Positions 1,288 to 54,321 of a stretch of DNA of 64,000 nucleotides are shown here, one piece after another. The stretch comes from Zooshikella harenae. GTDB taxonomy: Bacteria > Pseudomonadota > Gammaproteobacteria > Pseudomonadales > Zooshikellaceae. A program made the translations under genes and the position numbers. The notes under the pieces are model-generated. The model saw only the letters and a list, made by a program, of their open reading frames with translations, was not told where the DNA came from and did not search any database. Location: NCBI RefSeq assembly GCF_018837975.1, contig NZ_JAGSOY010000020.1, forward strand, positions 1 through 64,000, in the 5' to 3' direction. Each line of letters opens with the position of its first letter. The stretch's first letter is position 1.

Positions 1288-1405
1288 TGTTTAATCTCCT
1301 TATTCATTTACACGTTACTCAAAAGTTCTATGCCCTTTAAACGGGTATAGTAAACCTTTTCAGTTTTTATTATTTCGAAAAAATAATTATGGTTTAGTAG
1401 TTTTT

Positions 1406-1609
1406 TTATTCCGTGCGAATAGAACGTGGTCTCATATCAACCCAAACTTTATCAATATAAGCCACGCAATCCGAACGAACACCCTTAAATCCTTCCTCTT
1501 TCCACCCTAGAGGACAATGCTGTTCTTTGGGCCAAATGGAGTACTGCAGCTCTTCATTCACTACAACTTTACACTCAACACGATCATCATTTGAAAGAAA
1601 GCCAGACAT
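1406..1609 (-). CDS. MbtH-like NRPS accessory protein
   Basis: A 67-residue protein carrying the MbtH signature: NEELQYSIWP, then PLGW, a glycine-rich turn, C-x-x-YI and W-x-D-x-RP-x-S near the C-terminus. MbtH-like proteins bind NRPS adenylation domains and are needed for their solubility or activity. It sits between the third NRPS and the methyltransferase, in the same direction, with a GGGAG ribosome site. SacE plays this part in the safracin cluster. Its likely partners are the A domains of the three adjacent NRPS proteins. Confidence 0.95.
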   Translation of the reverse strand: MSGFLSNDDRVECKVVVNEELQYSIWPKEQHCPLGWKEEGFKGVRSDCVAYIDKVWVDMRPRSIRTE

Positions 1610-1675
1610 GTTTTTTTAACTCCCTGTTTCTTCAACTAATTACCTTTTAAACAATGCAACACCTAACACATAGCA

Positions 1676-6187: not shown

Positions 6188-9100
6188 GACATATTCTCCG
6201 CAAGAAGTGGGTCACTCAATAAACTATCAACCATAGCTTCTGTTAAGTGCGCAAAGGGGTCTTCAACGGCAGTGGCTTCTGCTGCTTGCTGCTTTAATCG
6301 GTCGATGGCCTGACTGAGGTGGGCAATAGTCGGCTCCAGAAAAACTTCACGCATAGGTAAAGCAACGTCAAAGCGTTGCTGAACGGCCTGTATCATCTGG
6401 CCTGCTAACAGTGAGTTCCCCCCAGCCACAAAAAAGTTGTCATCAATAGATACCTGCGGGCACTTAAGCAAACTAAGCCAGATTGCTGCCAATGCTCTTT
6501 GGGTATCCGTTGAAGGTAAGCGTTTACTGGTTTGAAAGGTTTGAGAAAATTCTGTAGGCGATGGGAGCTGCTGTTTATCAATCTTGCCGTTTGGTGTCAG
6601 AGGAAACGAGGACAGCGGGATGATGACTGAAGGCACCATAAAATCAGGTAGCCTCTTCTGTAGTTCAACAAATAACAGCTGTAGCAGTAGTTCATTGTCT
6701 TGATTAAGTAATTGCGCAGTTGCTGACCACACAATATAGGCAACAATTCGTTTTGTATGATTACTGTCTCCACTACTCATAACAACCGCTTCTGCCACCC
6801 AGGGCTGGTCCAACAAGATAGCCCTGATCTCTCCTAACTCAATGCGGAACCCTCTTAGTTTAATCTGTTCATCAACTCGTCCAAGAAACTCAAGCTCACC
6901 ATTCGCCAGACGCCGCACTCGATCACCTGTGCGGTATAACCGTTGCTCAGTAACGACACCTGATTCACTGTTAAATGGGTTAGGAATAAAAGCGCGTGCT
7001 GTCAGGCCTGGCTGCTGCCAATACCCTTGAGCAAGCCCCCGTCCGCCTATAAATAATTCACCACACATTCCTGGTGCAACCGGGAACAGGCTATTATCCA
7101 GTACATGATAAGTAGTGTTATCCAGTGGTTTACCCAGGGTCACTTTTTGCTGGGGTTGAAGTTGTTTGCACAGCGACCAAATGGTTGTTTCCGTCGGCCC
7201 ATATAGATTCCACACCTCAGCCCCGTTACTAAGTAGTTGACTTGCTAACTTATCGGTTAAGGCTTCCCCCCCACAAAGTGCAGTAAATGATGAAGGGGGG
7301 AGCCAACCAGCATCCGCTAACAGCTGCCAGGTTGCAGGTGTGGCCTGCATCACTGAAATATGATGTTGTTGAATAATATCAATGAGTGCTTGGCCATCGC
7401 CGGCCTGCTCTCTTGCGACTAGTACAACCTGTGCTCCACTCATTAAAGGTAACAATAGCTCTAGAACCGCGATATCAAAGGCGATCGTCGTTACTGCTAG
7501 CAGTCGGTCTTCAGGTTTGACGAGTGCGCGCCGATAAAATGAGGATAGAAAGTTGTTCACCCCCTCACGGGTAACCATGACGCCTTTTGGTTTACCTGTA
7601 GAGCCTGAGGTATACAGCAAATAAGCCAGTGATGTGGAATCTGAATAAGTCGATAATTCATCAATATCTACTGTTTGGGGTGAGATATTTGGCGCAGTGT
7701 CCAGCCGAGTAGGAAGCGAGCCTCCAGTATCATCGTATGCATCCACTAAGGCTATATTATTGACCTTGAGATTAATTTCCTGCAGCGACTCATAATCTTG
7801 AGATGTAACCAGTAACCAATGTGGTGCAGCATCAACCAGTGTCAACGTTACTCGTGCTGAAGGATAGTCTGGATCAATAGGTACATAAGCAGCACCCAGC
7901 TTATAAACAGCCAATAATGCAATAACCATTGTAGGTGTTCTAGGCAAGCAAATGGCAACTCGCTGACCAGCTCTCACTCCCTGAGCATCAAACCAAGCTG
8001 CCCATTGCTCCACCTGATCAACCAGTTGCTTATAAGTGAGCGATATACTTCCTGAGACCAGAGCCACCTTATCGGGATGGAGAGTTTTCTGTTGTGCTAT
8101 CACAGGCCAAAAACAACTGATAGCCTCATTTGATTGCTCTTGTTGAGAGCCACTTTCCAGAAACGACAGCGCCTCCTTAGTGTTTGATACCAGAGGCAAC
8201 TCAGCTACAGCACATAAAGGCGTTGTTGTAAGACTGTATAAAGCAGCACTATAAACATTAATAAATTGCCTAATCGTGTCTTCACTAAATAGCTGAGTAC
8301 TGTATTCAATCAGGCCTGACCAGTGCTCGCCTTGCTCAAACATAAATAGTGACAAGTCAAACTTTGATGTCTGATAAGCAACAGGTTGCTGTTTAATCTG
8401 TAAGTCATGGCAGCTAAACGCCGCAGGTGCTCCTGCAAATAATCCAAACATTGTCTGAAAAACAGGGTTATAACTCAGACTACGCTCAGGCTGCAGCGCA
8501 TTGACCAAAGCATCAAAGGGTAGCTGCTGATGATCCATTGCCATCAGTGTTTGTTGCCTTATTGCATTGAGCAACTCCAGTACTGATAAATCATCTTGCA
8601 GTAAGGCACGAACCACTAAGGTATTAGCAAAAAAACCAATAACATGGTTTAACTCATCTTGGACGCGATTGGCCACTGGCACACCGACTAAAAAGTCATC
8701 CTGACCCGAAAAGCGATGAAGCAAAATAATATAGGCTGCTAGCAGGGTCATGTAATTGGAAAAACCATGCTTTGCATTAAAGGCAGTAATCTGGGCTTGC
8801 AATGATTCAGGAATGGTAAAGGTGGAGGTTCGTCCTGCACAAGAACGTATTAATGGTCGAGGCTGATCTGTTGGTAAGTCAAGGTAAGGAGAGGCACCGT
8901 CCAGTAAGCGTATCCAGTAATCCTCTTGCGCTTTGGCCTCAGGAGTTTGCAACCATGTCTGCTGCCAACTCACATAGTCAGCAAATTGCAAAGGCAATGT
9001 AGGTAACGGCAAGGGTTGGTCAAGCAGTATCGCCTGGTAAGCGGCCAGTAGCTCTGACACCAACTGCTCCATAGACTGTCCATCCGCAAGTGCATGATGA

Positions 9101-9570
9101 ACACTGATATACAACGTTGCTAGCTCCTCTCTTTGACGAACGAGCACCAAGCGAACCAACTGCTGATTTTGTTCTAGTGAGGCATTTTGATTTAGCTCAC
9201 TAACCAAGTAAGCCTGACGTTGTTGCTGTTCACTGTCATCAAATAAGCGCCAATCCAAAACAGATATTGTAACCGTACCGTTAGGATCAATGACTTGCAC
9301 AAGCTGCTCATCAAGGATTGTCAGGTGCGTACGCAGGCTTTCATGCCGTTTCACTATTTCATTCAATGCACGCTGTAAAATGACCTGATTCAGTGGTCCT
9401 TCTATACTCAGCTTTACTAACATGAGATAGGCATTTAACCACTCTGGATCCAGAGTGCCTAAAAACCACAGCCGCTGTTGACCACTCGACGCAGGAAAAA
9501 CATAGCATTCTGCTAATTCCGTTGACGCTACCTGTTGTGGAGGATGCGTTGTCCTTTGCTGGTCTACCAT
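6184..9570 (-). CDS. NRPS C-A-PCP, glycine module, SfmB/SacB-like
   Basis: A 1128-residue single-module NRPS. The C domain (about 20-440) has an intact HHALADG near residue 158. The A domain (about 485-1000) has YTSGSTGKPK near 655 and yields the pocket code DILQLGLIWK, the usual glycine code. The PCP attachment serine is near residue 1053 (GGNSLL). It should add glycine to the alanyl chain made by the upstream NRPS. It follows that gene after 43 bp with a GGGAG ribosome site and overlaps the next by 4 nt. Length and layout match SfmB/SacB. Confidence 0.92.
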   Translation of the reverse strand: MVDQQRTTHPPQQVASTELAECYVFPASSGQQRLWFLGTLDPEWLNAYLMLVKLSIEGPLNQVILQRALNEIVKRHESLRTHLTILDEQLVQVIDPNGTVTISVLDWRLFDDSEQQQRQAYLVSELNQNASLEQNQQLVRLVLVRQREELATLYISVHHALADGQSMEQLVSELLAAYQAILLDQPLPLPTLPLQFADYVSWQQTWLQTPEAKAQEDYWIRLLDGASPYLDLPTDQPRPLIRSCAGRTSTFTIPESLQAQITAFNAKHGFSNYMTLLAAYIILLHRFSGQDDFLVGVPVANRVQDELNHVIGFFANTLVVRALLQDDLSVLELLNAIRQQTLMAMDHQQLPFDALVNALQPERSLSYNPVFQTMFGLFAGAPAAFSCHDLQIKQQPVAYQTSKFDLSLFMFEQGEHWSGLIEYSTQLFSEDTIRQFINVYSAALYSLTTTPLCAVAELPLVSNTKEALSFLESGSQQEQSNEAISCFWPVIAQQKTLHPDKVALVSGSISLTYKQLVDQVEQWAAWFDAQGVRAGQRVAICLPRTPTMVIALLAVYKLGAAYVPIDPDYPSARVTLTLVDAAPHWLLVTSQDYESLQEINLKVNNIALVDAYDDTGGSLPTRLDTAPNISPQTVDIDELSTYSDSTSLAYLLYTSGSTGKPKGVMVTREGVNNFLSSFYRRALVKPEDRLLAVTTIAFDIAVLELLLPLMSGAQVVLVAREQAGDGQALIDIIQQHHISVMQATPATWQLLADAGWLPPSSFTALCGGEALTDKLASQLLSNGAEVWNLYGPTETTIWSLCKQLQPQQKVTLGKPLDNTTYHVLDNSLFPVAPGMCGELFIGGRGLAQGYWQQPGLTARAFIPNPFNSESGVVTEQRLYRTGDRVRRLANGELEFLGRVDEQIKLRGFRIELGEIRAILLDQPWVAEAVVMSSGDSNHTKRIVAYIVWSATAQLLNQDNELLLQLLFVELQKRLPDFMVPSVIIPLSSFPLTPNGKIDKQQLPSPTEFSQTFQTSKRLPSTDTQRALAAIWLSLLKCPQVSIDDNFFVAGGNSLLAGQMIQAVQQRFDVALPMREVFLEPTIAHLSQAIDRLKQQAAEATAVEDPFAHLTEAMVDSLLSDPLLAENMS

Positions 9571-9613
9571 AATTCCTTGTTACTCCCTTACCAACTGATA
9601 CGTATTCCCAGCT

Positions 9614-12600
9614 TCACTGTTTTGAGTAAGTGACTCGCGGCTGGGCCTTTATCGATGTTGTTATTTGCTGCCCTTGCTGTTTAGTACGGGTAAGCAGCCT
9701 AGCCTGTTGAGCAATAGTGGGGGCCGAAAACAGTTCCTGTACACTCAACTTTATGCCCAACTGCTCATGCACTCGACTGGCTAGCTTGACAGCCAACAAT
9801 GAGTTTCCCCCCAAAAGAAAGAAGTCATCATGCACGCCTATTCTTAAAGAGTGCTCTTGAGAAGCTGCTTGGGAAAAACCAGAAGATATTCCTGACTGGC
9901 CACTTAGAAGCGCTTGCCAAATAGCATGAAGCTTCTGCTCTAACGGGGTTGTGGGTGGCAGATAATCAGATTTGTCTCTATGAGATACCATGTGATCAGT
10001 AAGAAGTGGTATTTGTTGTACCAACTGCTGGCGATCTACTTTACCGTTAGGCGTGAGTGGCAATTCATCTACGACTAAAAACTGAGTGGGTATCATGTAT
10101 TCAGGTAAATAACGCCCAAGGTAAGCACGAAACGCTCTCAACCGTTGATCTTCCTGCTCCAAAGGCTGATTTGGATGAGTGGCATTAACCACAAAAGCCA
10201 CTAGGTAACGTTGGTCATCATTACCCTCACTCACTAGTACTACAGCATTGCTAACACTAGGGTGCTGACCAAGCAACGACTCAATTTCACCAAGCTCTAT
10301 GCGATAGCCTCTGAGTTTCACCTGATGGTCAGTGCGTCCAATGTAGCGTAACAAGCCATCATCACCTCGACGAACCAAATCACCTGTCCGGTATAAACGA
10401 CTACCTATAGACTCAGATTGAAATGGGTCAGGAATGAAGCGTTCTGCCGTCACTCCTGGTTGTCCATAGTAGCCTCGAGCCACTCCTAAGCCGCCAATAT
10501 ACAACTCTCCCACCATACCTACAGGCACTTCGTTTAATGACTCATCCAACACATAAAGGGTGGTATTGGCAATTGGCAAGCCGATCGCTACAGGCTCACA
10601 GACCTGCACTGAGAGTTTGGCCATGGCTGAATAGGTGGTAGTTTCTGAAGGACCATAAAGGTTAATCACCTGAGCGACGTCTGTTTCCTGGTAAAGCCTA
10701 CGCACCAGAGAGGCACGTAGTGGTTCTCCAGCTAAATTAATGACTTTTACTGACGGTGGAATAGCTTGTTGGCTCAACAGGCTGGCAATGGCTGAGGGTA
10801 CGGTATTTATCAGAGTAACGTTTAAGCTTGATGGTAATGAAGGAAGTTGTAAGGCATTGTCGACCAGAATGACCCTTCCCCCATGGCATAACGGTACAAA
10901 TATTTCGAAAATGGATAGATCAAAACACACTGAAGTTGACGCTAGAACACCAGACAGTGTCTCCTCTGTAAACTCTTGCCCTGCCCAACGCACCAAGTTT
11001 GCTGCATTGTGGTGATTGATGCTGACACCCTTTGGCTGACCCGTTGAACCAGAGGTAAACAACACATAACACAACTGGTCAGGTTTAATTTGAGTAGTGG
11101 GACATTCGGGCACTAAGCTTGAAGAGGTTAGCGCCTCGATTTCAAACACGGGGCATGTAACATCCGGTAATTGGGGCAATAGCTTCGCAGATGTGAGTAC
11201 GACATCAACCTCACCGGCCTCTAAAATGTACGATATACGTGATGCAGGGTAGCTTGGATCAACAGGCACATAAACCAACCCTGCTTGTAGCACCCCTAAT
11301 AAAGCGAAAATTAAGTGCTGATCTCGAGCCGTAAATAATCCAACTTTACTCTCTGCTGATAAACCAAGTGCCAGTAAATATTCAGCAACCTGATTAGCAT
11401 GGCGGCTTAACTGCATGTAAGTAAACTGTGTTTGTCCCACCGTTAATGCGATACGGTCAGACGTTTTTTTAACCTGCCGTTGAAATAAAGCTGGCAGATT
11501 ATGTTCAGCCAAAACATCAACGGTTTTAGTATTATTCCATTCCGTCAAGCGCTGGTATTCATACTCAGAATAAGCAGCTGTTGACATCCTGGGTAAATCT
11601 TCCAAACCACCCGTGTGATCAAGCCAGACCCTGAGTAAGTCAACAAATTGTTCTGCATAGCGTTGCACTGTTGAGGTTGAAAGTTGACTCTGATCATAGT
11701 CAAAGGCACACCATAACCCATTAGCTGCTTGTGCTAATGCGTTATCAGACTGTTTGGTTTGAGAACCCGGTTTTGCTGCCACCGTCAGGCTGAGTAAAAA
11801 CTGAGGATCAGCAGGTGGTAAAGGATAAGCTGTCAGTTCTGCGGATCCGAGCAGCAGTGTACTATCAGCTGTAGACTCCTCCATCGCCAACGCTGACAAT
11901 GAAGGTAAAGAGGAATTATTTAAATAATTAAATAGCGTTTGAAATAAAGGGGTATGAGCACCGTCACGCTGTATCGCAAGCCGTTCTATCATTTTAGGTA
12001 AAGGAAAAGCTTGGTGTTTGAGTCCCCCTGTCACCACTGACTGTACACTCCGCATTAATTCAGTGGTAGAAAAAGAAGTATCTATTTTTATTCTTAATGG
12101 CAGTGTGTTTACACAACAGCCCACTATTTCAGCGGCCCCTGGAAAAGTGCGATTGACAACAGGTGAGCCGATTATAAATTCGTGATCACCTGAATAACGG
12201 TGTAGTAACACACTGTATACCGTTAACAATACAACATAAGGTGTTATACCCTGCTGATCAGCATAATCATTTAAACGTTGATGAAGTACTGCGTTCACTT
12301 CAAATTTGTAACGCATTGCACTTGTTCTAGCCGGAAAAGGTGCATTATTTGATGGCAAGGTAGACTCTTGAAAATCAGGCAACCGAAGTTTTGGCAACTC
12401 TCCCTTCAACTGTGTTTGCCAATATGGCCAGTCCTGCTCTTGAAAAAAATACTGGTGGGAATGTTGACTAAATATTGAAAAATCACTCCCTTTTAGAGAA
12501 AGCGTACACTTAGTCTCATCAAGCGGAGTATTAGTAGAGCTGTAATGATTATACTGTTGACAAAAGTCACGAAGAAATAAAGCCATCGACCAAAAGTCAA

Positions 12601-42643: not shown

Positions 42644-42994
42644 ATGAAGCTAACAATTCAATTACTGTTACTTTCTCTAGTGCTTCTTGCGCTACACTTT
42701 TTAGTAAGTAAGCTCCATATAGAGAATACAAGCTCTTTTACCAATAGCTTGCAGTTAATTTCTACTGAAAGCCATATTCATAGTGCGCACTCACAAATTG
42801 ACCATATTATTGAGGAGCATGAAACGAGCAGTGACGACTGTCATGGCTGTTATGGAAATTGTTCTCCCTTAACCAAATATAAAGATATTACGGTTATCTG
42901 TAATACAAATCTTTATTGTGTATCTCAACCCTCTTTCATAATAACAGGCTATTACGCCTTACCCTTTCGTCCACCTATCATCTTCCATGTTTAA
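42644..42994 (+). CDS. Small exported Cys/His-rich protein
   Basis: A 116-residue protein with an N-terminal hydrophobic segment (signal peptide or anchor). The mature part is His-rich (SHIHSAHSQIDHIIEEHE) and has four closely placed Cys residues (DDCHGCYGNC and later ICNTNLYC), ending FRPPI. The size, His/Cys content and FRPP-type end resemble small periplasmic proteins that accompany metal-efflux systems (CzcI/DUF2946-like). No efflux gene is adjacent. Metal binding is inferred. Confidence 0.55.
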   Translation: MKLTIQLLLLSLVLLALHFLVSKLHIENTSSFTNSLQLISTESHIHSAHSQIDHIIEEHETSSDDCHGCYGNCSPLTKYKDITVICNTNLYCVSQPSFIITGYYALPFRPPIIFHV

Positions 42995-43356: not shown

Positions 43357-44355
43357 ATGTTACTTCATCAAGCATATCAACAAAGAAATATCAGCGCAAA
43401 AACAGTGCTTCATAACAATTTTACGATGTCGCACCTACTGCTTTATCGTATCTCAGGCCACATTAAAAATAATTATCATTCCAGTATTGGTATTAGCTGT
43501 TATTACAATCAGTCACATTCTCATGTGAGATCCAAAATTGTTCCACATGAAAAAATAGACGAGTATCATGTAAAAGAAATTGAGCGAACCATGATATATG
43601 AACCCATTAATTCACCATGTTACTTGGTAACACAAAGTAAACTCTTTCTATTTAATCGTTTGTCTGCATGGTTTAAGCAATACTCTCCTACTTATTCTGT
43701 TTCTATTAATGGTTTAACACACTCCTTTATAAAAATTAACAACACTGAATATACCAGACAGCTCATGTCTTGCCTTAATAGTATTGAACACTTTATGATT
43801 GCAGATGGGCATCACCGTTTTGCAGCCCAGAAACAATTATTTCACGACCAGGGTGTATCTCCATCACTTCCCGTGTTTATTACACATACTACCCAAGCGG
43901 TGGTTAAAAGTTTCGATTTGGTTGCTTCCATGAACCAACAACTCTGTTGGTTTGCATTCCTTCATCACCTAAAAAAATCAGGTTTAGTCAGCTGTGCCCA
44001 AACACACGAAGACTACCATATCCTGTTTAATGGTCTGCATGCTAGTTTTAGGATAAACAACTATGAGAATGGCAAACAGTTTAGCGATTCATGTCTTCAA
44101 TATATGCATATTCTAAACGCATTAAAAACATATAAAGGCCTTGATGGTATCACTAGTGAAGACTTAATAGAAAATAATGTTCCACACAATAACATGAATC
44201 CAACTAACCAGCTCCGTATAAAAATAAAACCTCCTAGCGTTTCTGCCATGTATAACACAGCATTAAATGGCTCATTATTGCCAAAGAAATCAACTTGTTT
44301 TCTCTTTAAACCAGTAGAACATGTGACTCCTTTTTTAGCCACACCTGGAGAGTAA
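43357..44355 (+). CDS. DUF1015-family protein, possible free-serine kinase
   Basis: A 332-residue protein, shorter at the N-terminus than typical DUF1015 members (about 400). Visible family motifs are KIVPHEKI, IADGHHRF (D150-G-H-H-R154) and a C-terminal LLPKKSTCFLF, matching the family's P-x-KST-x-F. The DGHHR motif is shared with ParB/SbnI-type enzymes, some of which phosphorylate free serine. The next gene is an SbnA/CysK-like PLP enzyme, a class that can use O-phosphoserine; serine kinase activity is therefore a reasonable but unproven inference. AGAGG precedes the ATG. Confidence 0.7.
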   Translation: MLLHQAYQQRNISAKTVLHNNFTMSHLLLYRISGHIKNNYHSSIGISCYYNQSHSHVRSKIVPHEKIDEYHVKEIERTMIYEPINSPCYLVTQSKLFLFNRLSAWFKQYSPTYSVSINGLTHSFIKINNTEYTRQLMSCLNSIEHFMIADGHHRFAAQKQLFHDQGVSPSLPVFITHTTQAVVKSFDLVASMNQQLCWFAFLHHLKKSGLVSCAQTHEDYHILFNGLHASFRINNYENGKQFSDSCLQYMHILNALKTYKGLDGITSEDLIENNVPHNNMNPTNQLRIKIKPPSVSAMYNTALNGSLLPKKSTCFLFKPVEHVTPFLATPGE

Positions 44356-44394
44356 TAAGGGTTATTGTCCCTTTCAAAAAAGCACGACAATAAA

Positions 44395-44422
44395 CTCTAA
44401 AGATGATTCTTGAAGGCTATAC
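44395..44422 (-). repeat. Dispersed intergenic repeat, copy 2
   Basis: Minus-strand sequence TATAGCCTTCAA then GAATCATCTTTAGAG. Located between the DUF1015 and PLP-enzyme genes. Confidence 0.6.
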
Positions 44423-44483
44423 TCAACCATAATTTTTACATACACCCTGTTCTATGGGTCTAGATAATATTAAAGGGAATAAA

Positions 44484-45617
44484 ATGTTATCTTTAGCATC
44501 AGACGCTTCAACAGTGATATCCAATAGTTTTATTGCCAAATCTGTTGATCACGCAATAGGTCATGTACCTTTTGTTCAACTTAACCGAATTCATTCACTT
44601 TGCAAAAAACATCGCGTTTTTATGAAACTTGAATCGTGTAATCCTTCCGGTAGTATCAAAGACAAAAATGCCGCCTATCTGATTAATCAAGCAGAAAAAG
44701 AAGGCTTACTTAAACCAGGAGGCACTATTATTGAATCAAGCTCAGGGAATTTTGGTTTAGCACTCGCCAGTATTGGCGCGGCAAAGGGTTATCATGTCAT
44801 CATTGTTATTGATGCCAAAACGCCACCGCCCGTGTTAAAAATGCTAAACGCTTATGGCGCACAACTGGTGGAAGTTCCCTTAAACCAAGCAGATGCTGCT
44901 GGTTCAATGCAAAAGGCACGTATGGCCAAAGCCAAAGAATTATCTCAAAAAATCAGTAACTCATTTTATCCTTGCCAGCACCTTAATCCTAATAATCCTG
45001 CTGCACATCAAGTATACACCGCACAGGAAATTACGGCTGCATTTAATCCAATGCCTGATGCAATTGTATTAGGTGTCAGTACTGCTGGGCAGTTGGCAGG
45101 CATAGCCCGCCATTTTCGTCAACACTCACCTCATACTGATATTATTTGTGTTGATGTCGCTGGTTCAGGTGTACTCGGTATGCCCCGTCATCCCTATAAA
45201 ATGACAGGTCTAGGCTTATCATTTGTGCCTCCTGAATTTAGTTATGATTTTTTAGACTATGGTTATAATGTCACAGACCAAATTGCTTTTTCAATGTGTC
45301 ATTATTTAGCACGAATGGAGGGATTATTATTAGGTGCATCAACAGGGGCCATTGTGAGTGCGGGTCTTGCATACTTACAACAACAGTCGCACAACGTATC
45401 TATAGTACTTATTAATCCTGATCGGGGAGACCGTTATTTAGATACTGTTTTCAATCCACAATGGTTACAAAAAAATAACCTTCCCCTTCTAGAGCAGCAC
45501 GAACTTAATGCTGCTATTCAGCAACAACTACAACCTATTTACTCACCTACTTCACACATTAGTATTAACCAACACGTACCAGCGATTAGCTTTTCAGGTC
45601 AACATCAGAATGAATAA
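44484..45617 (+). CDS. PLP-dependent cysteine synthase/SbnA-like enzyme
   Basis: About 377 residues, fold type II PLP enzyme. The PLP lysine is K59 in NPSGSIKDK; the substrate loop is ESSSGNFGLAL and the phosphate-binding loop is GVSTAGQLAG instead of the CysK GTGTGG. These features resemble SbnA, which joins O-phosphoserine and glutamate on the way to 2,3-diaminopropionate, more than housekeeping CysK. AAAGGGA fits ATG 44484; the frame opens at 44454. It lies between the DUF1015 gene and a MATE-type transporter. The product cannot be read; no SbnB-like dehydrogenase is nearby. Confidence 0.75.
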   Translation: MLSLASDASTVISNSFIAKSVDHAIGHVPFVQLNRIHSLCKKHRVFMKLESCNPSGSIKDKNAAYLINQAEKEGLLKPGGTIIESSSGNFGLALASIGAAKGYHVIIVIDAKTPPPVLKMLNAYGAQLVEVPLNQADAAGSMQKARMAKAKELSQKISNSFYPCQHLNPNNPAAHQVYTAQEITAAFNPMPDAIVLGVSTAGQLAGIARHFRQHSPHTDIICVDVAGSGVLGMPRHPYKMTGLGLSFVPPEFSYDFLDYGYNVTDQIAFSMCHYLARMEGLLLGASTGAIVSAGLAYLQQQSHNVSIVLINPDRGDRYLDTVFNPQWLQKNNLPLLEQHELNAAIQQQLQPIYSPTSHISINQHVPAISFSGQHQNE

Positions 45618-45677
45618 ATAATGCTTATGCATCAAGATATCTAAACACTGTTGTTTAGATCTCCACTAAGCCAAAAG

Positions 45678-45711
45678 CTCCCTTCACACGCTTTTGTTTA
45701 TGTGAAGGGAG
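45678..45711 (+). terminator. Hairpin after the PLP enzyme gene
   Basis: CTCCCTTCACA (45678-45688) pairs with TGTGAAGGGAG (45701-45711), loop 12 nt rich in T. Lies 60 bp after the stop; no long T-run follows. Confidence 0.6.
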
Positions 45712-45712
45712 T

Positions 45713-45740
45713 TATAACCCTTCATGAATCATTTTTAGGG
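45713..45740 (+). repeat. Dispersed intergenic repeat, copy 3
   Basis: TATAACCCTTCAT then GAATCATTTTTAGGG, upstream of the MATE-type gene. From 45726 it shares 23 identical bases with copy 4. Confidence 0.75.
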
Positions 45741-45819
45741 TTTGTTGTGAATATTTTTTAGGGCGATTGCCCCAAAAGCAAAAACGCCCTTAAATTAAGG
45801 GTATATTAAGGAGTTATTT

Positions 45820-47166
45820 ATGAGCAAGGTTAATGGCTCATCCCGTAATTTACTAAAACAATTTATACCAATGGCCACCAGTGATATCGTCATGGCTCTG
45901 GGTGACCCTATTATTATATTTGTATTGGCGAGTTTACCTGATAGTACACACTATCTTGCTGCATTTGCATTAGGCAAAAGCATTGCTGTTTTTTTTGAGA
46001 GCCCTATTATTCCTATTTTACCCACTGCGAATGCCATGGCTTATCAAGCAAGAGCACGCAAGCTTTTGTTTCAATTTACTCTGATCCTGAGTATCGGTCT
46101 GATGATAGGGATGCTACTCATTGGTTGCTTTCCAGCGCTTTCCATGTTTTTCCAAGTTGATACATCCCTTTGGCAATCAGCTTCACTACTCGTTTTATTA
46201 CTCTGTCCTTGGCCATTGGTTATCAGTCTACGTCGATACTGGCAAGGCCAAATTATACGCGCAGGGTTTACTCATATTATTGCCAAGGGTTCATTACTGC
46301 GATGTTTACTATTAACCATTACCGCTTTTACGATGGCCTTCTTCACCCACCAAGGTGCATGGATTGCCGCAGCCGCTTTATTAACTGGCGCTGTGAGTGA
46401 ACTGTTATTTATCCGAAATAAAATTAACAAAATTACACTGCAGGAGGACTGTAGTGCTTCACCTTTACCTGACAATTTAATGGCAATGAGTCGCTATTAC
46501 TGGCCGTTAGCACAATCAATGATTTCACTGTGGGGAGCCCGTTTATTACTGCCTCTATTAATCGCGATGACAAGCACTTTAAATGTTGCTATTTGGGCAG
46601 CAGGTTGGGCATTAGTCATCAGTATCAGTAATGGTGTAAGAATGTTGCAACAACTTGTCATACGTAACATAAACCACACACACAAAACAACACTTTGCCT
46701 ATTTTCGATAAGCATTGGCTGTAGCTTTAGTTTACTTTTATTTCTGCTAGCCACTACGCCTTGGGGTCATGAATTCCTTCACTATTATGCAGGTAAACAG
46801 GATAAGTTACTTTTAGGCATTCAGGATATTTTACTTGTCTGTAGCCTGCTACCATTATTGATGTCTCTGCAAAACTTCTGTCAAGGTTTACATATGGTAC
46901 AAAGCTCAACAGCGGTCATTGGGCGATCAGCACTTATTGCCAACCTAATGCTAATTGCAGGTGCTCTTTTCATGATGTATTTAAATGCAAGCCCTGCTTG
47001 GTTTGCAATCATTGTTTGCCTGACAACACTACTTGAAGTCTTCTTATTAGCCTATCAATTAAAAAATAATATCAATGATGGGCACACAATATCCCTAATG
47101 AGACTAATACGCATGATTCCCTTAAAAATCACAACAAGAACATCGATAAAAACCATAAACAACTAG
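45820..47166 (+). CDS. MATE/MOP-type multidrug or metabolite exporter
   Basis: A 448-residue integral membrane protein with about 12 hydrophobic segments. Spacing of the segments and the N-terminal LLKQFIPMATSDIVMALGDPIII are like MATE/MOP-superfamily exporters; it is not a close match to NorM or to a flippase by eye. AAGGAG precedes the ATG. Because the two genes before it could make a small amino-acid-like compound, it may export that compound (inference). Copies of a dispersed repeat lie on either side of it. Confidence 0.68.
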   Translation: MSKVNGSSRNLLKQFIPMATSDIVMALGDPIIIFVLASLPDSTHYLAAFALGKSIAVFFESPIIPILPTANAMAYQARARKLLFQFTLILSIGLMIGMLLIGCFPALSMFFQVDTSLWQSASLLVLLLCPWPLVISLRRYWQGQIIRAGFTHIIAKGSLLRCLLLTITAFTMAFFTHQGAWIAAAALLTGAVSELLFIRNKINKITLQEDCSASPLPDNLMAMSRYYWPLAQSMISLWGARLLLPLLIAMTSTLNVAIWAAGWALVISISNGVRMLQQLVIRNINHTHKTTLCLFSISIGCSFSLLLFLLATTPWGHEFLHYYAGKQDKLLLGIQDILLVCSLLPLLMSLQNFCQGLHMVQSSTAVIGRSALIANLMLIAGALFMMYLNASPAWFAIIVCLTTLLEVFLLAYQLKNNINDGHTISLMRLIRMIPLKITTRTSIKTINN

Positions 47167-47202: not shown

Positions 47203-47228
47203 TATACCCTCACGAATCATTTTTAGGG
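47203..47228 (+). repeat. Dispersed intergenic repeat, copy 4
   Basis: TATACCCTCAC then GAATCATTTTTAGGG, downstream of the MATE-type gene; identity with copy 3 runs on to 47236 (TTTGTTGT). Confidence 0.75.
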
Positions 47229-47454
47229 TTTGTTGTCAGCGTTTTTGAACACCAAGGATAGTGTGAATGCAGTTTATGCAGGAGCATTTAACTGCCACCC
47301 CAGTCACATATTAATATAAACTCCTGGAGTTTCATCGCTTGACGGCCGCCCCTTTAAACTCTTCGTATTGGGTATACTTGAAAAAGTAGACACCATTTTT
47401 AATAAAATATATCTATACTACTGTGATACAAGGATATCCTGCGCAAACTCATTT

Positions 47455-50400
47455 ATGATGAAATCAAGAAGGCATTTTTTTGTAAAGTATCTGGCTAGAA
47501 TTTTTTTGCCCGTTGCTATTTTAATTTCAGCTCTTACCTATTTAGGTTATGAACTTGAGAATGAGCGTATTTATAATAGGCTGATGCTTACTGGCCAAGA
47601 AGTAGTTAGAGCAGGCAATACCACTGTTTTAAGAAGTCTTGACTTGATCACAAGCGATGTCATTTTTCTCTCTCATGAGTCAGAACTTAACGAATATATT
47701 AACGCCCCCAAACCAGAAACCTTACATAACATCCACAACGAGTGGATCAATTTTATTCGCACTAAAACCATATACGATCAAGTCCGCTGGATCGACGAGC
47801 ATGGTTTGGAGCGTATTCGCGTCAATAGTAACAACGATGGTCAACCAACCTTTATTCCTATAAAACAGCTACAAAATAAAGCTGATCGTTATTATTTTTC
47901 TGAGACAAACAAATTATCGCGTGATGACACTTTTCTTTCCGCGCTTGATTTAAATATTGAGCATCACCGTATTGAAGAACCACACAAGCCAACGCTGCGG
48001 GTAAGCACACCTGTTTTTGATAGTAATAACAACCGACGAGGTATCGTTATACTTAACTATGCGAGCGGAGATATGCTTACCTTACTGCGCTCAATAAGCA
48101 ACAACCATATCTGGCTTACAAATGAGGATGGTTATTGGTTATTAGGTCCTAGCAAACCTGATGAATGGGGCTTTATGTTTGATCGTACAGATCTGACGAT
48201 GGTAAACCGTTTTCCAAAAGCCTGGACCTATATTGTTAGTCACGAAAGTGGCAGCCTTGAGACCGAGTCTGGTTTTTGGACATTCTTAACGGTTAATCCA
48301 TTATCAACTCAAAGCTCAGCACTTCATCATAACCAAAAGGCTTCGCAACAACCCAATTCTCTCCCTCATAACACCTGGAAGCTGATTCACTTTATTCCAG
48401 CGAGTGAGTACTGGCCTTTGTTAAAAGAAACCCGGATTCAATTTATTACTTCAACGCTTTTACTATTTTTGGTTTTATTAGCCATCACATGGCGTTATTC
48501 GTTAGTACAACGAACAAAAACACATGCATTATATCAAGTAGCGCATTCCAATAATGCCAAACGAAAAGCAGAACAAGCGCATGTAATAGAGATCGCCAAA
48601 CACGCTTACGAATTACAAGTCGCTAAAGACAGCGCAGAACGAGCGAATCAATCAAAAACCAATTTTCTTTCAAATATGGGACACGAAATACGTACCCCCT
48701 TAAACGCAATTCTAGGTCTTACTTACTTATTAGAAAAACAAGAAGATTTATCTTCTTCCGCTCAAAGTATGGTACAACGCATTTACAGTGCAGGTCAGTC
48801 TTTAATGGGTGTAATCAATGATATTCTCGATTTTTCAAAGATTGAAGCTAACAAACTGGAAATAGAAAGCATTCCCTTTCAACTGTCTGAAGTACTTGAT
48901 AACCTTGCCAGCATTATGGCTACAACCGTGGGCCAAAAACCAATCGAAGTGGCCATTGCACCACCACCGTCCCATGCTGAACACCTAATAGGAGACCCAC
49001 TCCGCCTTGGACAAATCCTGACTAACCTTGTTAGTAATGCCATTAAATTTACCGAAAAAGGAGAAATCATTGTAAATGTTTCTCCCGTGAATAACGAACC
49101 GGTTATGGCACCTATTCTATTACGTTTTTCTGTGATTGATACTGGAATAGGTATCCCCCAAGAAAAACAGCAACAAATATTTAACTCATTTACACAAGCC
49201 AATTCCTCTCAAACACGCATATACGGAGGTACTGGTTTAGGCTTAACGATTAGCCGGCACTTGATCGAAATGATGGGTGGAGAAATTGGCGTAAAAAGTG
49301 AAGTAGGTAAAGGCAGCGAGTTTTTTTTCGTTATTCCTTTTGAGTCAAGTAATCCAGCCCTCAATCAGGTTGACCCAGCATTTCACCAACATGTCTTAGT
49401 GATTGATGACAATGCGTCTGCTCGCACGTTAATCTCTGAAAGTGTTGAGAGTCTTGGTTGGACTGCTTACTCAACCTCTTCATGTGAAGAAGCTTTAAAG
49501 TTAGTAAGTCAATGTAATGACAAACCATTTGATCTTTTATTAATCGACTGGCAAATGCCTGATATGGATGGAGTGACTTTTGCGACAAAAGTGAATGAAA
49601 CATTTTCTCATATGTCTTTCCAGACCATCTTAATGACCAGCGCTTATAAGCGAAAATCTCTGTATGACAACACTCAATCTTCATTTATTGATTATGTTTT
49701 GACAAAACCTATCACCGCCTCCACTTTATACAATGTAGCACTCGAGTCACAAATGCGACGTTCTGCCCAGTATAAATCTGAAAAAATACCAACACAGAGA
49801 TTAAAGGGGATTCAGGCTCTTGTCGCTGATGATAGTGAAATCAACCGTACAATAGCGCGAAATATACTCGTTGAAGAAGGTGCTCATGTTGCACTTGCTG
49901 AAAATGGTGCAGATGCATTATCAATCTTGCGAACACACCCAGACCAGTATGATATTGTTTTTATGGATTTACAAATGCCGATCATTGATGGTTATGAGGC
50001 TATACAACAAATAAGAACTGACCCCACTATCGCCTCAATACCAATCGTTGCTATTTCTGCAGAAGACATGAAACACCAGCATTCAAAAGAATTTATGGCA
50101 GGTATTAATCAATGTATTCCAAAGCCATTTAATCATAATGAATTAGTCTATGTTACGCGCAGTCTTACTAAATTAAGTAAAAATGACATCCCCTTTATTG
50201 AAGAATACAGCACTCAAAAAACCAGCGAGTCAAACCATATACCTTTACTTGACATAGATGATGCAACAGAAAAGTGGAATGAACTTGACAAATTTTATGT
50301 CCAATTAACAAACTTCACAACAGATCACAACAAGGATGTACAAAAAATTTGTGATGCTTTAAGACATAACAACATTGAATCTGCAAAAATAATTACTCAT

Positions 50401-50625
50401 ACATTACAAAATGTTGCCAATAACTTATCACTAACACGTGTTGCTCAAGACGCGCGCGCATTAGAAATTACTTTTCGAAAAGAAGTGGAACCCAGTAAAC
50501 GCGTTGATCATAAAAAAGTACAGACATTATGTTCCACACTAAACCAGACAATCAGCACTGTAAACGAATATCTTACAGACAGCGCTAATACCAGCTCAAG
50601 TAAAACACCCACACTAACCTCATAG
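47455..50625 (+). CDS. Hybrid sensor histidine kinase (Cache-HisKA-HATPase-REC-REC-Hpt)
   Basis: About 1056 residues. Two membrane helices flank a periplasmic sensing region of about 300 residues, probably Cache-like. Then come HisKA ([18 protein letters not shown]), HATPase_c ([16 protein letters not shown]), two receiver domains (phospho-Asp in [12 protein letters not shown] and [12 protein letters not shown]) and a C-terminal Hpt ([12 protein letters not shown]). A TTG start at 47368 would add 29 residues, but the paralogue next door begins right at the matching HFFVK, so ATG 47455 (or 47458) is preferred. The ligand is unknown. In the Hpt motif the usual glycine after HxLK is Asn. Confidence 0.9.
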
Positions 50626-50829
50626 TTTTTCCTTGGGTCAGGGTAATTCTTCTGTATTATTAGTTTTGAAGAATGACGACTAAAATTACACTATAATAGT
50701 ATTCAATAAACCTTTTTCCAAAATATATTCATCTACGAAGTTCACTTTCAGGTAAAAAACGATCAAGTGTATTAATCTATACCCATAACAAATAAAGGGT
50801 ATATTAAATAACAATTTGGTAGTGAATAC

Positions 50830-53800
50830 ATGTCCCAAACACGCCATTTTTTTGTCAAGCATTTTTTGATTTTATTTTTACCTGTATCCTTTCTGCTTTT
50901 AGGAATTGCTTATTTTTTCTATCAAGTTCAAGCAGAACAAATATATGGCCAACTTAGACTTACCAGCCAGGCAAGTGTTGATGCAGGTCGAGCGACTATT
51001 TCTCGAAATTTTGATTTGATCACCGGTGATTTATTATTCTTAGCCAAAGAAAAAGAGCTAAGTAAATTACTTAATAATAAAACACCGTTGTCACTTAAAA
51101 ATATTAAGCAACAATGGATCAGTTTTTCTTACGTGAAACAAGTTTATGACCAAATCCGTTGGATTGATGAAACGGGTATGGAACAAGCACGTATTAACTA
51201 CAATAGTGGTAAATCATTCGCAGTATCAACGCAACAATTACAAAATAAAGCTAGTCGCTATTATTTCACTGAAACGCATAAGCTTAAAAAAGATGAAATT
51301 TATATTTCTACGCTTGACCTTAATGTTGAACAAGGAAAAGTCGAATTACCACGAAAACCAACCATTCGCATAGCCACCCCATTAATTAACGAAGGAGGTG
51401 AAAGACGTGGCATTATTGTTCTTAACTTTAACAGTACAGATATGCTGGAACAGCTCCGTATTGTTAATCGAAATCATCTTTGGTTAACCAATAAAAAAGG
51501 GCACTGGTTACTTGGACCTACCCATAAAGATGAGTGGGGGTTTATGTTCGAAAAGCCAGAGTTAAGTGTCGCTCATCGTTATCCTGAAGCTTGGGCTGAT
51601 ATATCGACCAAGGAAAGTGGTGCATTTGAAACATCTGAAGGGTATTGGGTATATCACACTGTGTATCCCCTTCATACCATTAAAGTCAGTCAACAAAATA
51701 GTCAAGATCAATACGAACCTACTCCACTTCAACTTCATAAACTCAAGTATTCCTGGTACTTAATTCATTTCACACCTAATAACCAATATTTACCTCAGCT
51801 TGAAGTAAAAGCCTCACAGACAATTGCTATGACCATGCTGCTACTCGTCATTTTATTTATGGGAACATTGAGGCTTACTCGCCTACAGCAAAAAGAAGCA
51901 ACTGCCTTGAAGGAGGCCGCCAACGCGCTGGAATTACAGCGAAAGACTGAGCATACCTATGCAGAAGAAATGGCTAAACGCGCCGATGAACTTCAAGCCG
52001 CTATGAGTACGGCAGAACAAGCCAATCAAGCCAAATCTGACTTTTTATCCAATATGAGTCACGAAATTAGAACGCCCATGAATGCTATTCTTGGATTAGC
52101 CTACCTATTAGAAAAACAAGAAAATTTATCGCCATCAGCTATTGCAATGGTACGAAAAATACATAGTTCAGGACGAGCGTTACTGGGTATTATCAATGAT
52201 ATTTTAGATTTCTCTAAAATAGAAGCTAGCCGACTTGAAATTGAAAACATACCTTTTCAACTATCTGAAGTACTCGACAACTTAGCCAATATTATGTCGT
52301 CAGCTGTTGGTCAGAAGTCCGTTGAAGTCGTCGTTGCACCTGCTCCAGATGGTGCCGACTTTTTAAAAGGTGATCCATTACGTCTTGGACAAGTACTTAT
52401 TAATTTAGTCAGTAATGCAATCAAGTTTACCGAAAAAGGTGAGGTTGTCTTGGGTATCACTCGAGTCAACAGTGATCAACCCAATAACACTATACATCTT
52501 CGTTTTTCAGTCAAAGACACAGGTATTGGTATTCCTAAACACAAGCAAAAGCAAATTTTTGAGTCATTTAGTCAAGTAGATGCCTCTACCACAAGGAACT
52601 TTGGAGGATCAGGGCTAGGACTAACGATCAGCCGACATTTAGTTAAGTTGATGGGAGGTCAGTTACATTTAAATAGTACATTAGGTAAAGGCAGTGAATT
52701 TTTCTTTACATTGTCTTTTGGCTGTAGTGATCCTTCCTATAGTTCAGTGCCAGAAATGTTACATCAACGTATTTTAATTGCTGATGACAATAATACAGCT
52801 CGGCTGTTACTTTCCGATACTGCCGCAAGTTTAGGGTGGAATGCAGTTACAGTTGATTCAGGTATTAAAGCCATTGAAGCTGTCAATAATATCCATCAAC
52901 CGTCCTATGATATTTTATTGCTCGACTGGCGAATGCCCGGAGTAGATGGTCTTGCAGCCGCAGCCGAAATTAAAGAAAAATTTCCAGGCTGGAAGTCGCC
53001 CATCATTATTATGGTTACGGCCTATGACCGCCAACAGCTATTTGAGCAACCAGAACATTATCTGGTTGATGGTATACTGACTAAACCCGTCACCAGTTCC
53101 TGCCTGTATAATGCTGTTTTAGATGCCAAAAATCGTCGATCACCAACAAAAACACAGAAAAATCTACCTCCCACACAACGCTTGAAAGGAATACGTATTC
53201 TTGTTGTTGATGACAGTGAAATAAACCGTGATGTAGCTGAAGATATACTGACAGGAGAAGGCGCAATTGTTGATGTTGCCGAAAATGGACTACATGCATT
53301 AAAAGTTCTGGAAACTGAAAACACATCATTTGATGTTGTTTTGATGGATATGCAAATGCCTGTTATGGACGGTTACGAAGCAACCCGAAAAATTCGTTCA
53401 ACACCTTCACTTCACCACTTACCTGTTATTGCATTGACAGCAGGTGCATTTAAAATACAACAAGATGAAGCCTTTAAAGCAGGTATCAATGAGTTCGTAT
53501 CCAAGCCTTTTGATATCACTGAACTCGTTAATGCTACACTACGGCTGTGTGGTAAAAAACTTGCCTCCTCCTCAAGCAGTAACAAAACACAAGAAGACAA
53601 CAGCTCAAATCAACCACCAGATATTCAAACGCCCCATACAGATCAAGAGGCTCACCTTGAACATTCAGCAGAGCCCAATGCGATCACTGAAAAGCCATTA
53701 GTTGATATTGAAGATGGTAAACGCAGATGGCGAAAAGTTGCGTCATACCATAAGCAGTTAAACGTTTTCATACATAGTCATAGTGACGATGCTATACAAG

Positions 53801-54321
53801 TAAACAATGCTCTCCATCAAGGTGATACGGAACAAGCCAAGGCCATTGTTCATAAGTTAAAAGGTGCTGCGGGTACACTCTCATTATTCCGTGCCGCCAA
53901 TGAAGCTGATGCGTTAGAGCAAGCACTACAAGACTCTCAACATAAAAGTAACCAACAAAACAATGAAAGTTTAGCTCAAGCCTTACAGGCGACAATGCAA
54001 AAAACCCTTTCCATTATTCAAAACTATCTTTCCTCTCAAATTCAAGATGTGAGTGGTCAACAACAGGCTGTCCCTCCACCAGTAAAGTCTAAAGAAATTA
54101 AAACGTACTGTGATCAACTTCTACAAGCATTAAATACAGATGACCCTGAGATTATTGAACCACTTTTGCATAAACTTGAAGGGAAATTACCCAAAGAATT
54201 TCAGTCAAAACTGGTAACCTGCATTGAAATGTTCGACTTCCGTGGAGCCGAAATACTGATTCGCACCTTGCTGGAATCAAGGACGGTAAAACATGAACAG
54301 AAAACCCATTCTATGCATTGA
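50830..54321 (+). CDS. Hybrid sensor histidine kinase, paralogue with extended C-terminus
   Basis: 1163 residues, same architecture as the preceding gene and closely similar along the whole sensor and kinase part (RHFFVK start, QVRWIDE/QIRWIDE, NKA-x-RYYF). His[20 protein letters not shown], HATPase GSGLGLTIS, two REC domains ([12 protein letters not shown] and [12 protein letters not shown]), and a canonical Hpt ([12 protein letters not shown]). A tail of about 80 residues after the Hpt, absent from the paralogue, contains [13 protein letters not shown]. Its last 29 bases overlap the HD-GYP regulator, its probable phosphorelay target. Confidence 0.92.

Follow-up and report, generated by a model that had tools for sequence, protein, structure and literature searches.

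What does the marine bacterium Zooshikella harenae make, and what does it export, at a locus where genes for a DUF1015 protein, a PLP enzyme and an exporter follow one another? The locus lies in a window of 64,000 nucleotides (the whole stretch of DNA analyzed), and a preliminary description had likened it to SbnI-SbnA, in which free serine is phosphorylated and then used by a PLP enzyme. In the staphyloferrin B pathway of Staphylococcus aureus, SbnA combines phosphoserine with glutamate to form ACEGA (PMC12414870, in excerpt). We tentatively read the locus, with a little less than even confidence, as a make-and-export cassette for a serine-derived chelator acting against excess metal, and in the Zooshikellaceae equipped with its own serine kinase. 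From serine, the gene set probably forms an unusual amino acid, which is then exported. Because relatives of two of the genes are often found with metal-resistance genes on plasmids of cyanobacteria, this product may be a secreted metal binder.

Organization and Conservation of the Locus

Table 1. Open reading frames of the locus, in window coordinates.
Feature	Position	Strand	Length
Small Cys/His-rich protein	42644-42994	+	116 aa
DUF1015 protein	43357-44355	+	332 aa
PLP enzyme	44454-45617	+	387 aa
Exporter	45820-47166	+	448 aa

All four ORFs are intact, and codon-position divergence from Z. ganghwensis indicates purifying selection; a later ATG of the PLP ORF, at 44484, corresponds to the position where the Z. 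ganghwensis orthologue begins. The three genes first noticed are real, but a conserved fourth member of the set, the small Cys/His gene, had been overlooked, and it is found directly upstream of the DUF1015 gene in all five family genomes. In the Zooshikellaceae, this gene and a compact DUF1015 gene precede the PLP-exporter pair. Loss of gene order had been named beforehand as an observation that would count against the proposal, and the four-gene order proves to be kept in four of the five family genomes. The fifth (G002) keeps the first two genes, followed by a different SbnA-like enzyme, with SbnA-like plasmid matches at 40-41% among the matches listed, and by a different membrane protein, with weak, partial Gate matches on plasmids. 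A pattern-based genome scan returned one locus, that of Z. ganghwensis, and alignments of the upstream regions revealed no convincing operator shared by the operons of the family.

The PLP beta-replacement enzyme and its ANKH-like transporter form a conserved pair found in Zooshikellaceae, one Vibrio and 11 cyanobacterial plasmid records. In all 12 records of the plasmid collection that hold an exporter homologue, the gene directly follows that of the PLP enzyme, and the same records supply the 12 best PLP matches (55.5-63.9% identity; the next is at 39.4%). They correspond to about nine distinct loci, with Leptolyngbya boryana present twice and three Tolypothrix/Microchaete records looking like near-copies; nine loci were examined, NZ_CP092420, NZ_CP064880 and AP018234 falling outside this count. 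At E 1e-10, the exporter is found in its own genome only among 369 genomes of the class and 398 of the phylum. Of 390 genomes of the order, 12 have a match: four Zooshikellaceae and eight weak ones. In all eight weak neighborhoods (5.4-14.5 kb each, one contig ending near the gene), tblastn gives no match to the PLP, DUF1015 and small proteins of the window.

A Putative Serine Kinase

The DUF1015 protein of the window matches PF06245 at 42.9 bits (cut-off 25.8), the match being confined to positions 88-221 of the 325 in the profile. All five family members match PF06245. The DGHHR motif already pointed out in the preliminary description lies at residues 150-154, within IADGHHR (148-154), and PHE at 63-65. 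These two motifs and T313/F315/K318/P319 are kept in six of six DUF1015 sequences, one of them adjoining SbnB and SbnA. In this last case (genome G183, a frame of 346 aa) a dedicated test bears out the neighboring SbnB. The archaeal SerK (TK0378) also has DGHHR, and its PKTTRH resembles by eye the C-terminal PKKST of the window protein; however, SerK is a shorter protein of 242 aa, the window protein belongs to the DUF1015 family, and its match to the 1VK1 profile is insignificant (E 0.72). The idea of serine phosphorylation is thus favored by the motifs and by the DUF1015-SbnB-SbnA cluster, but not by the SerK model NF053625, which gives 14.2 bits, far under its cut-off of 380. From these sequence features, we infer that the compact DUF1015 protein is probably a free-serine kinase producing O-phosphoserine. 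The ParB-like active site of SbnI has the conserved acidic residues Glu20 and Asp58 (PMC9641203, in excerpt), of which the acidic residues of PHE and DGHHR may be the counterparts. The predicted model of the protein (pLDDT 48.1) is too poor for a fold search.

DUF1015 was also considered as a marker across Gammaproteobacteria and rejected: since 121 of 369 genomes (own included) have a match, mostly full-profile ones in frames of 400-500 aa, its presence is uninformative alone. Apart from the window's own, the compact form of G183 is the one examined in context. The plasmid collection gives no match to the DUF1015 protein, which is therefore an addition to the cassette and not part of its core.

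The PLP Enzyme

The PLP enzyme matches PF00291 at 221.5 bits, and its residues 33-341 align with SbnA (5D84) at 185.8 bits. SbnA is also its best NCBIfam model, at 293.3 bits, without reaching the cut-off of 349.95; three plasmid homologues score 295.2-307.1 bits, and two SbnB-linked SbnAs score 391.3 and 392. In ten of ten aligned exporter-linked sequences, SbnA residues Arg132 and Ser185 are kept, while Tyr152 (placed via the Y152F chain 5D86) is replaced by His, so that use of phosphoserine by the enzyme is not assured. The set of three residues is itself not strict, because the two SbnB-linked SbnAs have Gly at position 185.

In the tree, the 12 exporter-linked rows (four Zooshikellaceae and eight plasmid copies) form a clade with support 100/100, whose placement next to any one relative is tentative, as several outgroups are long branches. 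The Scytonema copy, whose PLP gene is cut by the start of the record, was left out, as were NZ_CP092420, NZ_CP064880 and AP018234. PALP-family genes occupy ten further places in the genome: its SbnA is in the tree, four of six others tried entered it (own_L093 and own_L099, which gave no frame, were left out), and the remaining three stayed outside, as did outgroup H16. At least one of the ten groups with CysK. CysK and CysM (O-acetylserine sulfhydrylases) are likewise fold type II PLP enzymes, to which the window enzyme is homologous over most of its length; it differs by its separate clade, its SbnA-like residues and its linked exporter.

Judged by curated cut-off and tree, the enzyme is not SbnA proper. 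A member of the CysK/SbnA superfamily, it probably couples a nucleophile with the alanyl part of phosphoserine or of another activated serine. The proposed parallel with SbnI-SbnA is partly supported: a predicted serine kinase stands beside an SbnA-like enzyme. Unlike the S. aureus SbnI-SbnA-SbnB system, the locus has a DUF1015-type protein in place of SbnI, a dedicated exporter and, in many relatives, a metal-resistance setting.

The Exporter

The window exporter has no Pfam match, either to ANKH (PF07260) or to any other family. Its likeness to ANKH (SLC62A1), a citrate exporter of the MOP superfamily, comes through homologues: three of the four plasmid copies scanned reach 27.9-44.2 bits, above the cut-off of 22, and ANKH is matched at E <= 0.1 in four of ten aligned homologues, the window's own not being among them. 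Foldseek aligns a poor model of the exporter (pLDDT 55.6) with MATE and MurJ structures (best E 6.7e-7). There are 52 PDB matches at E <= 0.001, and the best 50 are all MATE, MurJ or other MOP-type proteins, except for one titled “protein A.” A MOP fold (MATE/MurJ superfamily) is thus provisionally assigned. Given the homologues above the ANKH cut-off and this low-confidence model, the original label of MATE exporter is right at the superfamily level, within which the protein is nearest ANKH. Human ANKH exports citrate and, to a lesser extent, malate and succinate (PMC12174118, in excerpt).

The Small Cys/His Protein

The small protein has a hydrophobic N-terminus, a DCHGCYGNCSPL core and FRPPI close to the C-terminus, and judging by eye it is probably secreted. 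Residues C66, H67, C69, C73 and F108-I112 are invariant. One of the five family copies matches nearly the full profile of the metal-binding regulatory family CopL (NF033807; E 3e-4), at 21.4 bits and so under the cut-off of 40; the window's own copy has no such match. A search of the plasmid collection with the L009 copy found nothing, and a DNA pattern for the Cys core gave mismatched matches elsewhere, little above the reversed control.

The Metal-Resistance Setting

The preliminary description gave no functional context, and the metal-resistance setting is derived from the loci of relatives. Metal-related genes adjoin the pair at seven of the nine plasmid loci examined, and P-type ATPases, RND/cation efflux genes, DUF305 genes or a phytochelatin synthase gene occur within 10 kb of it. 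At six Nostocales loci, a divergent RppA/RppB two-component system adjoins the pair, both proteins being above cut-off in all six cases; because these loci are related by descent, they count as about one observation. We take RppA/RppB to be the metal-sensing NrsR/NrsS of Synechocystis. The Tolypothrix RppAB pair does not reach the cut-offs of the heavy-metal models cztR_silR_copR and cztS_silS_copS, and the DUF305 protein of Tolypothrix is above cut-off for the CopM model. The Oscillatoria copy is adjoined by RND genes and by a MerR-type regulator, which falls under every curated cut-off among the matches listed. Of 20 metal genes on a hand-made list for pANACY.02, 10 are found 15 kb or less from the pair, where random points give 3.4 (fraction 0.046), a modest enrichment. 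Nostocales plasmids carry large metal islands in any case. In Leptolyngbya, the nearest metal-resistance gene encodes a P-type ATPase and is some 8 kb beyond the exporter; around the Vibrio copy, none is annotated within 12 kb.

The copper resistance operons copMRS and copBAC of Synechocystis (PMC4284471) offer a comparison: a CopM-type protein is encoded near the Tolypothrix pair, and the two-component systems at the six loci are of the OmpR type. However, these systems match RppAB best, and the excerpted account of the known operons mentions neither a PLP enzyme nor an ANKH-like exporter (PMC4284471).

A Proposed Pathway and Its Alternatives

A model can be proposed by comparison with these systems. 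In the Zooshikellaceae, the DUF1015 protein would phosphorylate free serine, whereas cyanobacteria and Vibrio would draw activated serine from central metabolism. The PLP enzyme would eliminate the phosphate to give aminoacrylate, to which Asp, Glu or a different amino acid would add as the amino nucleophile, yielding an N-(2-amino-2-carboxyethyl)-amino acid akin to the product of SbnA. Without SbnB, the adduct would stay uncleaved and no diaminopropionate would form. The transporter would export the resulting polycarboxylate, which would probably bind excess metal outside the cytoplasm, copper or nickel being the most likely, and in the plasmid hosts the cassette would be under the control of a metal sensor. 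The [S,S]-EDDS zincophore and aspergillomarasmine are also aminopolycarboxylate chelators made from activated serine via CysK/SbnA-like enzymes; this comparison is at the level of chemistry.

The same chemistry could serve metal acquisition, the product being a metallophore of the zincophore or siderophore type secreted under metal starvation. The EDDS zincophore pathway uses Dap-like genes, and Leptolyngbya has a ferrichrome receptor gene, accompanied by an AraC-type regulator, some 4 kb beyond the exporter. The use of SbnA-type chemistry for staphyloferrin B (PMC12414870, in excerpt) points the same way. We nevertheless consider acquisition unlikely: the Nostocales and Oscillatoria neighbors are mostly of the resistance type (P-type ATPases, RND/cation efflux, DUF305), and the annotation tables, themselves incomplete, name a TonB-dependent receptor at none of the other eight plasmid loci examined. 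If the metal genes merely reside on the same plasmids, the cassette might instead make and export an amino-acid antimetabolite or a signal. This would fit the surroundings of the Vibrio copy, and also G002, where the enzyme and membrane protein are swapped but the DUF1015 and small-protein genes kept, as for alternative products. The directly divergent RppAB at six loci and the weak CopL likeness of one Zooshikellaceae small protein speak against such a role, which is improbable to a similar degree.

Supply of cysteine, by a stress cysteine synthase with an exporter of cysteine or a thiol, is a still more doubtful reading. The CysK-type models TIGR01136 and TIGR01139 do reach 226-249 bits in the four members scanned, and in Scytonema the exporter is followed at about 8 kb by a phytochelatin synthase gene; but in the same four members the SbnA model beats TIGR01139 by 55-80 bits, and the genome's ten other PALP-family places include at least one that groups with CysK. 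Retention of Arg132 and Ser185 argues in the same direction: in CysK, the second of these residues is usually Gly, as it is in the one cysteine synthase aligned here. Finally, the cassette could supply plain 2,3-diaminopropionate by cooperating with an SbnB from elsewhere. The reported lack of SbnB holds for the locus, yet SbnB is encoded on another contig of the genome (389.6 bits, cut-off 326.9). There it already adjoins an SbnA and a SerK/SbnI-like protein of its own, and the annotation tables name no SbnB at the nine plasmid loci examined, which makes this supply role very improbable. A chelator acting against excess metal remains our preferred reading.

Implications

Pumps, oxidases, chaperones and metallothioneins are the usual explanations of metal resistance in bacteria. 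The cassette is not named in the literature searched, consulted mostly without full texts. With somewhat more reserve than for the locus itself, we suggest that the mobile PLP enzyme and ANKH-like exporter unit could be an undescribed type of metal resistance, in which an aminopolycarboxylate chelator would be made from activated serine and exported under copper or nickel stress, and to which the Zooshikellaceae would add a DUF1015 kinase and a secreted Cys/His protein. If this is true, the plasmid-borne synthesis and secretion of a small detoxifying chelator would be a further resistance strategy, and a function would be suggested both for the ANKH-like bacterial exporter and for the compact branch of DUF1015.

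A conserved four-gene locus in Zooshikellaceae

The preliminary description had proposed that a DUF1015 kinase-like protein, an SbnA-like enzyme and a MATE exporter make and export a serine-derived non-protein amino acid. The three ORFs have the coordinates and plus strand given there, and a small Cys/His protein gene completes the locus. The DUF1015 match scores 42.9 bits (cut-off 25.8) over profile positions 88-221 of 325, the second gene encodes a PALP-fold enzyme (221.5 bits), and Pfam and NCBIfam scans of the exporter returned no match. The two Zooshikella differ by codon position in a way that points to purifying selection on each of the four genes. Two copies of a direct repeat bracket the exporter gene, which is followed immediately by a tandem pair of long sensor-kinase-like ORFs.

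Coordinates of the locus and of related features
Feature	Position	Strand	Remark
Small Cys/His protein	42644-42994	+	hydrophobic N-terminus; fourth gene
DUF1015 protein	43357-44355	+	candidate kinase
PLP enzyme	44454-45617	+	
Exporter	45820-47166	+	
Direct repeat, copy 1	45719-45758		40 nt; copies 85% identical; PLP-exporter gap
Direct repeat, copy 2	47207-47246		past exporter gene
Sensor-kinase-like ORFs	47368-54321		first: HK_sensor_dom_bact, HisKA, HATPase, two receiver stretches; second: assigned by eye
Alternative module, L011 (family relative G002)	10291-12169		SbnA-like enzyme 295.6 bits, under cut-off; Gate-domain membrane protein
G183 cluster, L043	1041-7618		all genes in one direction
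SerK/SbnI-like-SbnA-SbnB set, L047 (own genome)	8659-11188		contig 1 end
CopL-like small protein beside DUF411 protein, L113 (own genome)	668-1884		contig 350; CopL-like protein 25.1 bits, under cut-off

The DUF1015 protein was found in 5 of the 56 genomes searched (own included), all within the family. Gene order is conserved: four of these genomes (own, L008, L009 and L010) have small protein, DUF1015, PLP enzyme and exporter in that sequence. The flanks are the same in both Zooshikella and different in the other genus, and the exporter has one genome-contig match, in Z. ganghwensis DSM 15267 (74%). The fifth locus, L011, retains the small protein and DUF1015 next to a different PLP enzyme (39% identity), followed by a gene for a Gate-domain membrane protein, so that enzyme and membrane protein have apparently been swapped.

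The enzyme and exporter as a plasmid-borne pair

In the plasmid collection, exporter homologues occur in 12 records (31.7-49.0% identity), always directly after a PLP homologue; the Scytonema pair spans the start of its circular record. The same records hold the 12 best PLP enzyme matches (55.5-63.9%, the thirteenth reaching 39.4%), and their hosts are cyanobacteria apart from one Vibrio europaeus. For L009, L010 and the plasmid copies L049-L051, the two ORFs overlap or almost touch. Since neither the DUF1015 protein nor the small protein (L009 copy) has a match in this collection and the pair is always adjacent, enzyme and exporter form the core, to which Zooshikellaceae appear to have added the candidate kinase. 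Eight other genomes of the order encode weak exporter relatives, none of them beside a PLP gene.

SbnA is both the best NCBIfam model for the PLP enzyme, under its cut-off, and the top PDB match, at 185.8 bits nearly equal to the top cysteine synthases (183.5). The 12 exporter-linked enzymes examined form a single clade (support 100/100), separate from CysK and from three SbnAs that are linked to SbnB (in the own genome, G183 and Pantoea). SbnA Arg132 and Ser185 are retained, and Tyr152, placed in the alignment through the Y152F chain 5D86, is replaced by His within a YPCQH-NP motif in all ten aligned members.

The exporter model (pLDDT 55.6, low confidence) matches MATE and MurJ structures. 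Pfam ANKH was detected at E 0.1 or less in 4 of 10 aligned homologues, and when four plasmid homologues were scanned one by one, three exceeded its cut-off. PMC12174118 describes human ANKH as an exporter of citrate and, to a smaller extent, of malate and succinate, so a polycarboxylate product would suit the exporter.

A candidate serine kinase

The family DUF1015 proteins keep PHE and IADGHHR and end in a PKKST-F-KP motif, which by eye resembles PKTTRH in archaeal SerK. The DGHHR aligns with 1VK1 without significance (E 0.72), and the curated SerK model gives 14.2 of 380 bits, far under cut-off. SbnI requires Glu20 and Asp58, according to PMC9641203; in the DUF1015 proteins, PHE and DGHHR may be their counterparts. 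DUF1015 matches occur in 121 of 369 genomes of the class, where full-length proteins are common, and the candidacy does not extend to the DUF1015 family as a whole. The compact protein of the gammaproteobacterium G183 shares PHE, IADGHHR and the C-terminal T, F and KP, and its gene directly adjoins SbnB (370.9 bits, cut-off 326.9), then SbnA (392 bits).

The G183 cluster comprises SbnA, SbnB, the compact DUF1015 and three further genes: FMN-dependent hydroxy-acid dehydrogenase-like, 4-hydroxyphenylpyruvate dioxygenase-family (over the HPPD cut-off) and, by eye, aminotransferase-like. It perhaps uses diaminopropionate and hydroxyphenylglycine.

Metal-related neighbors of the pair

Nine plasmid loci were opened, six of them from Nostocales (Anabaena cylindrica, Tolypothrix, Nostoc sp. 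C052, N. carneum, N. linckia, Scytonema). At all six, the pair is preceded immediately upstream by divergent genes for a response regulator and a sensor kinase, which exceed the cut-offs of the RppA and RppB models; general heavy-metal two-component models stayed under theirs for the Tolypothrix regulator and kinase. RppAB is presumably the nickel-responsive NrsRS of Synechocystis. P-type ATPase, cation/RND efflux or DUF305 genes lie within 10 kb at five of the six, with the CopM model over cut-off in Tolypothrix; phytochelatin synthase lies within 10 kb in Scytonema, and a P-type ATPase just beyond the record start in Anabaena. On the whole plasmid pANACY.02, 10 of 20 hand-listed metal genes are within 15 kb of the pair (mean at random points 3.4; 10 reached by 4.6%). 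In Oscillatoria, RND genes and a gene annotated as a heavy metal-responsive regulator adjoin the pair, this MerR-type regulator scoring under the cut-offs of curated models. Two loci do not fit a metal setting: no metal-resistance gene is annotated up to 12 kb from the Vibrio europaeus pair, and in Leptolyngbya a P-type ATPase appears no nearer than about 8 kb beyond the exporter, a ferrichrome receptor being closer.

Within Zooshikellaceae the metal link rests on the small protein, as one of the five family copies is similar to CopL (21.4 bits, E 3e-4, under cut-off). The CopL-like protein on contig 350 of the own genome adjoins a DUF411 protein and shares an RPPI ending with the small protein of the locus.

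Proposed function

The best-supported reading is that a serine-derived amino acid adduct is made, then exported. Thiol supply is one rival, and diaminopropionate supply another; the locus is probably not the genome's source of the latter, because a separate SerK/SbnI-like-SbnA-SbnB set lies at the end of contig 1. There SbnA and SbnB both exceed their cut-offs, the SerK/SbnI-like frame reaches the end of the contig sequence examined, and the set is probably a true diaminopropionate cassette.

In the window locus, without SbnB, the adduct would stay uncleaved, and such compounds may be of the type that chelates divalent metals. The product could also be a metallophore made under metal starvation, or a metabolite unrelated to metals. 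Given the metal setting of the plasmid relatives, the exported adduct would most likely serve as an extracellular chelator against metal excess.
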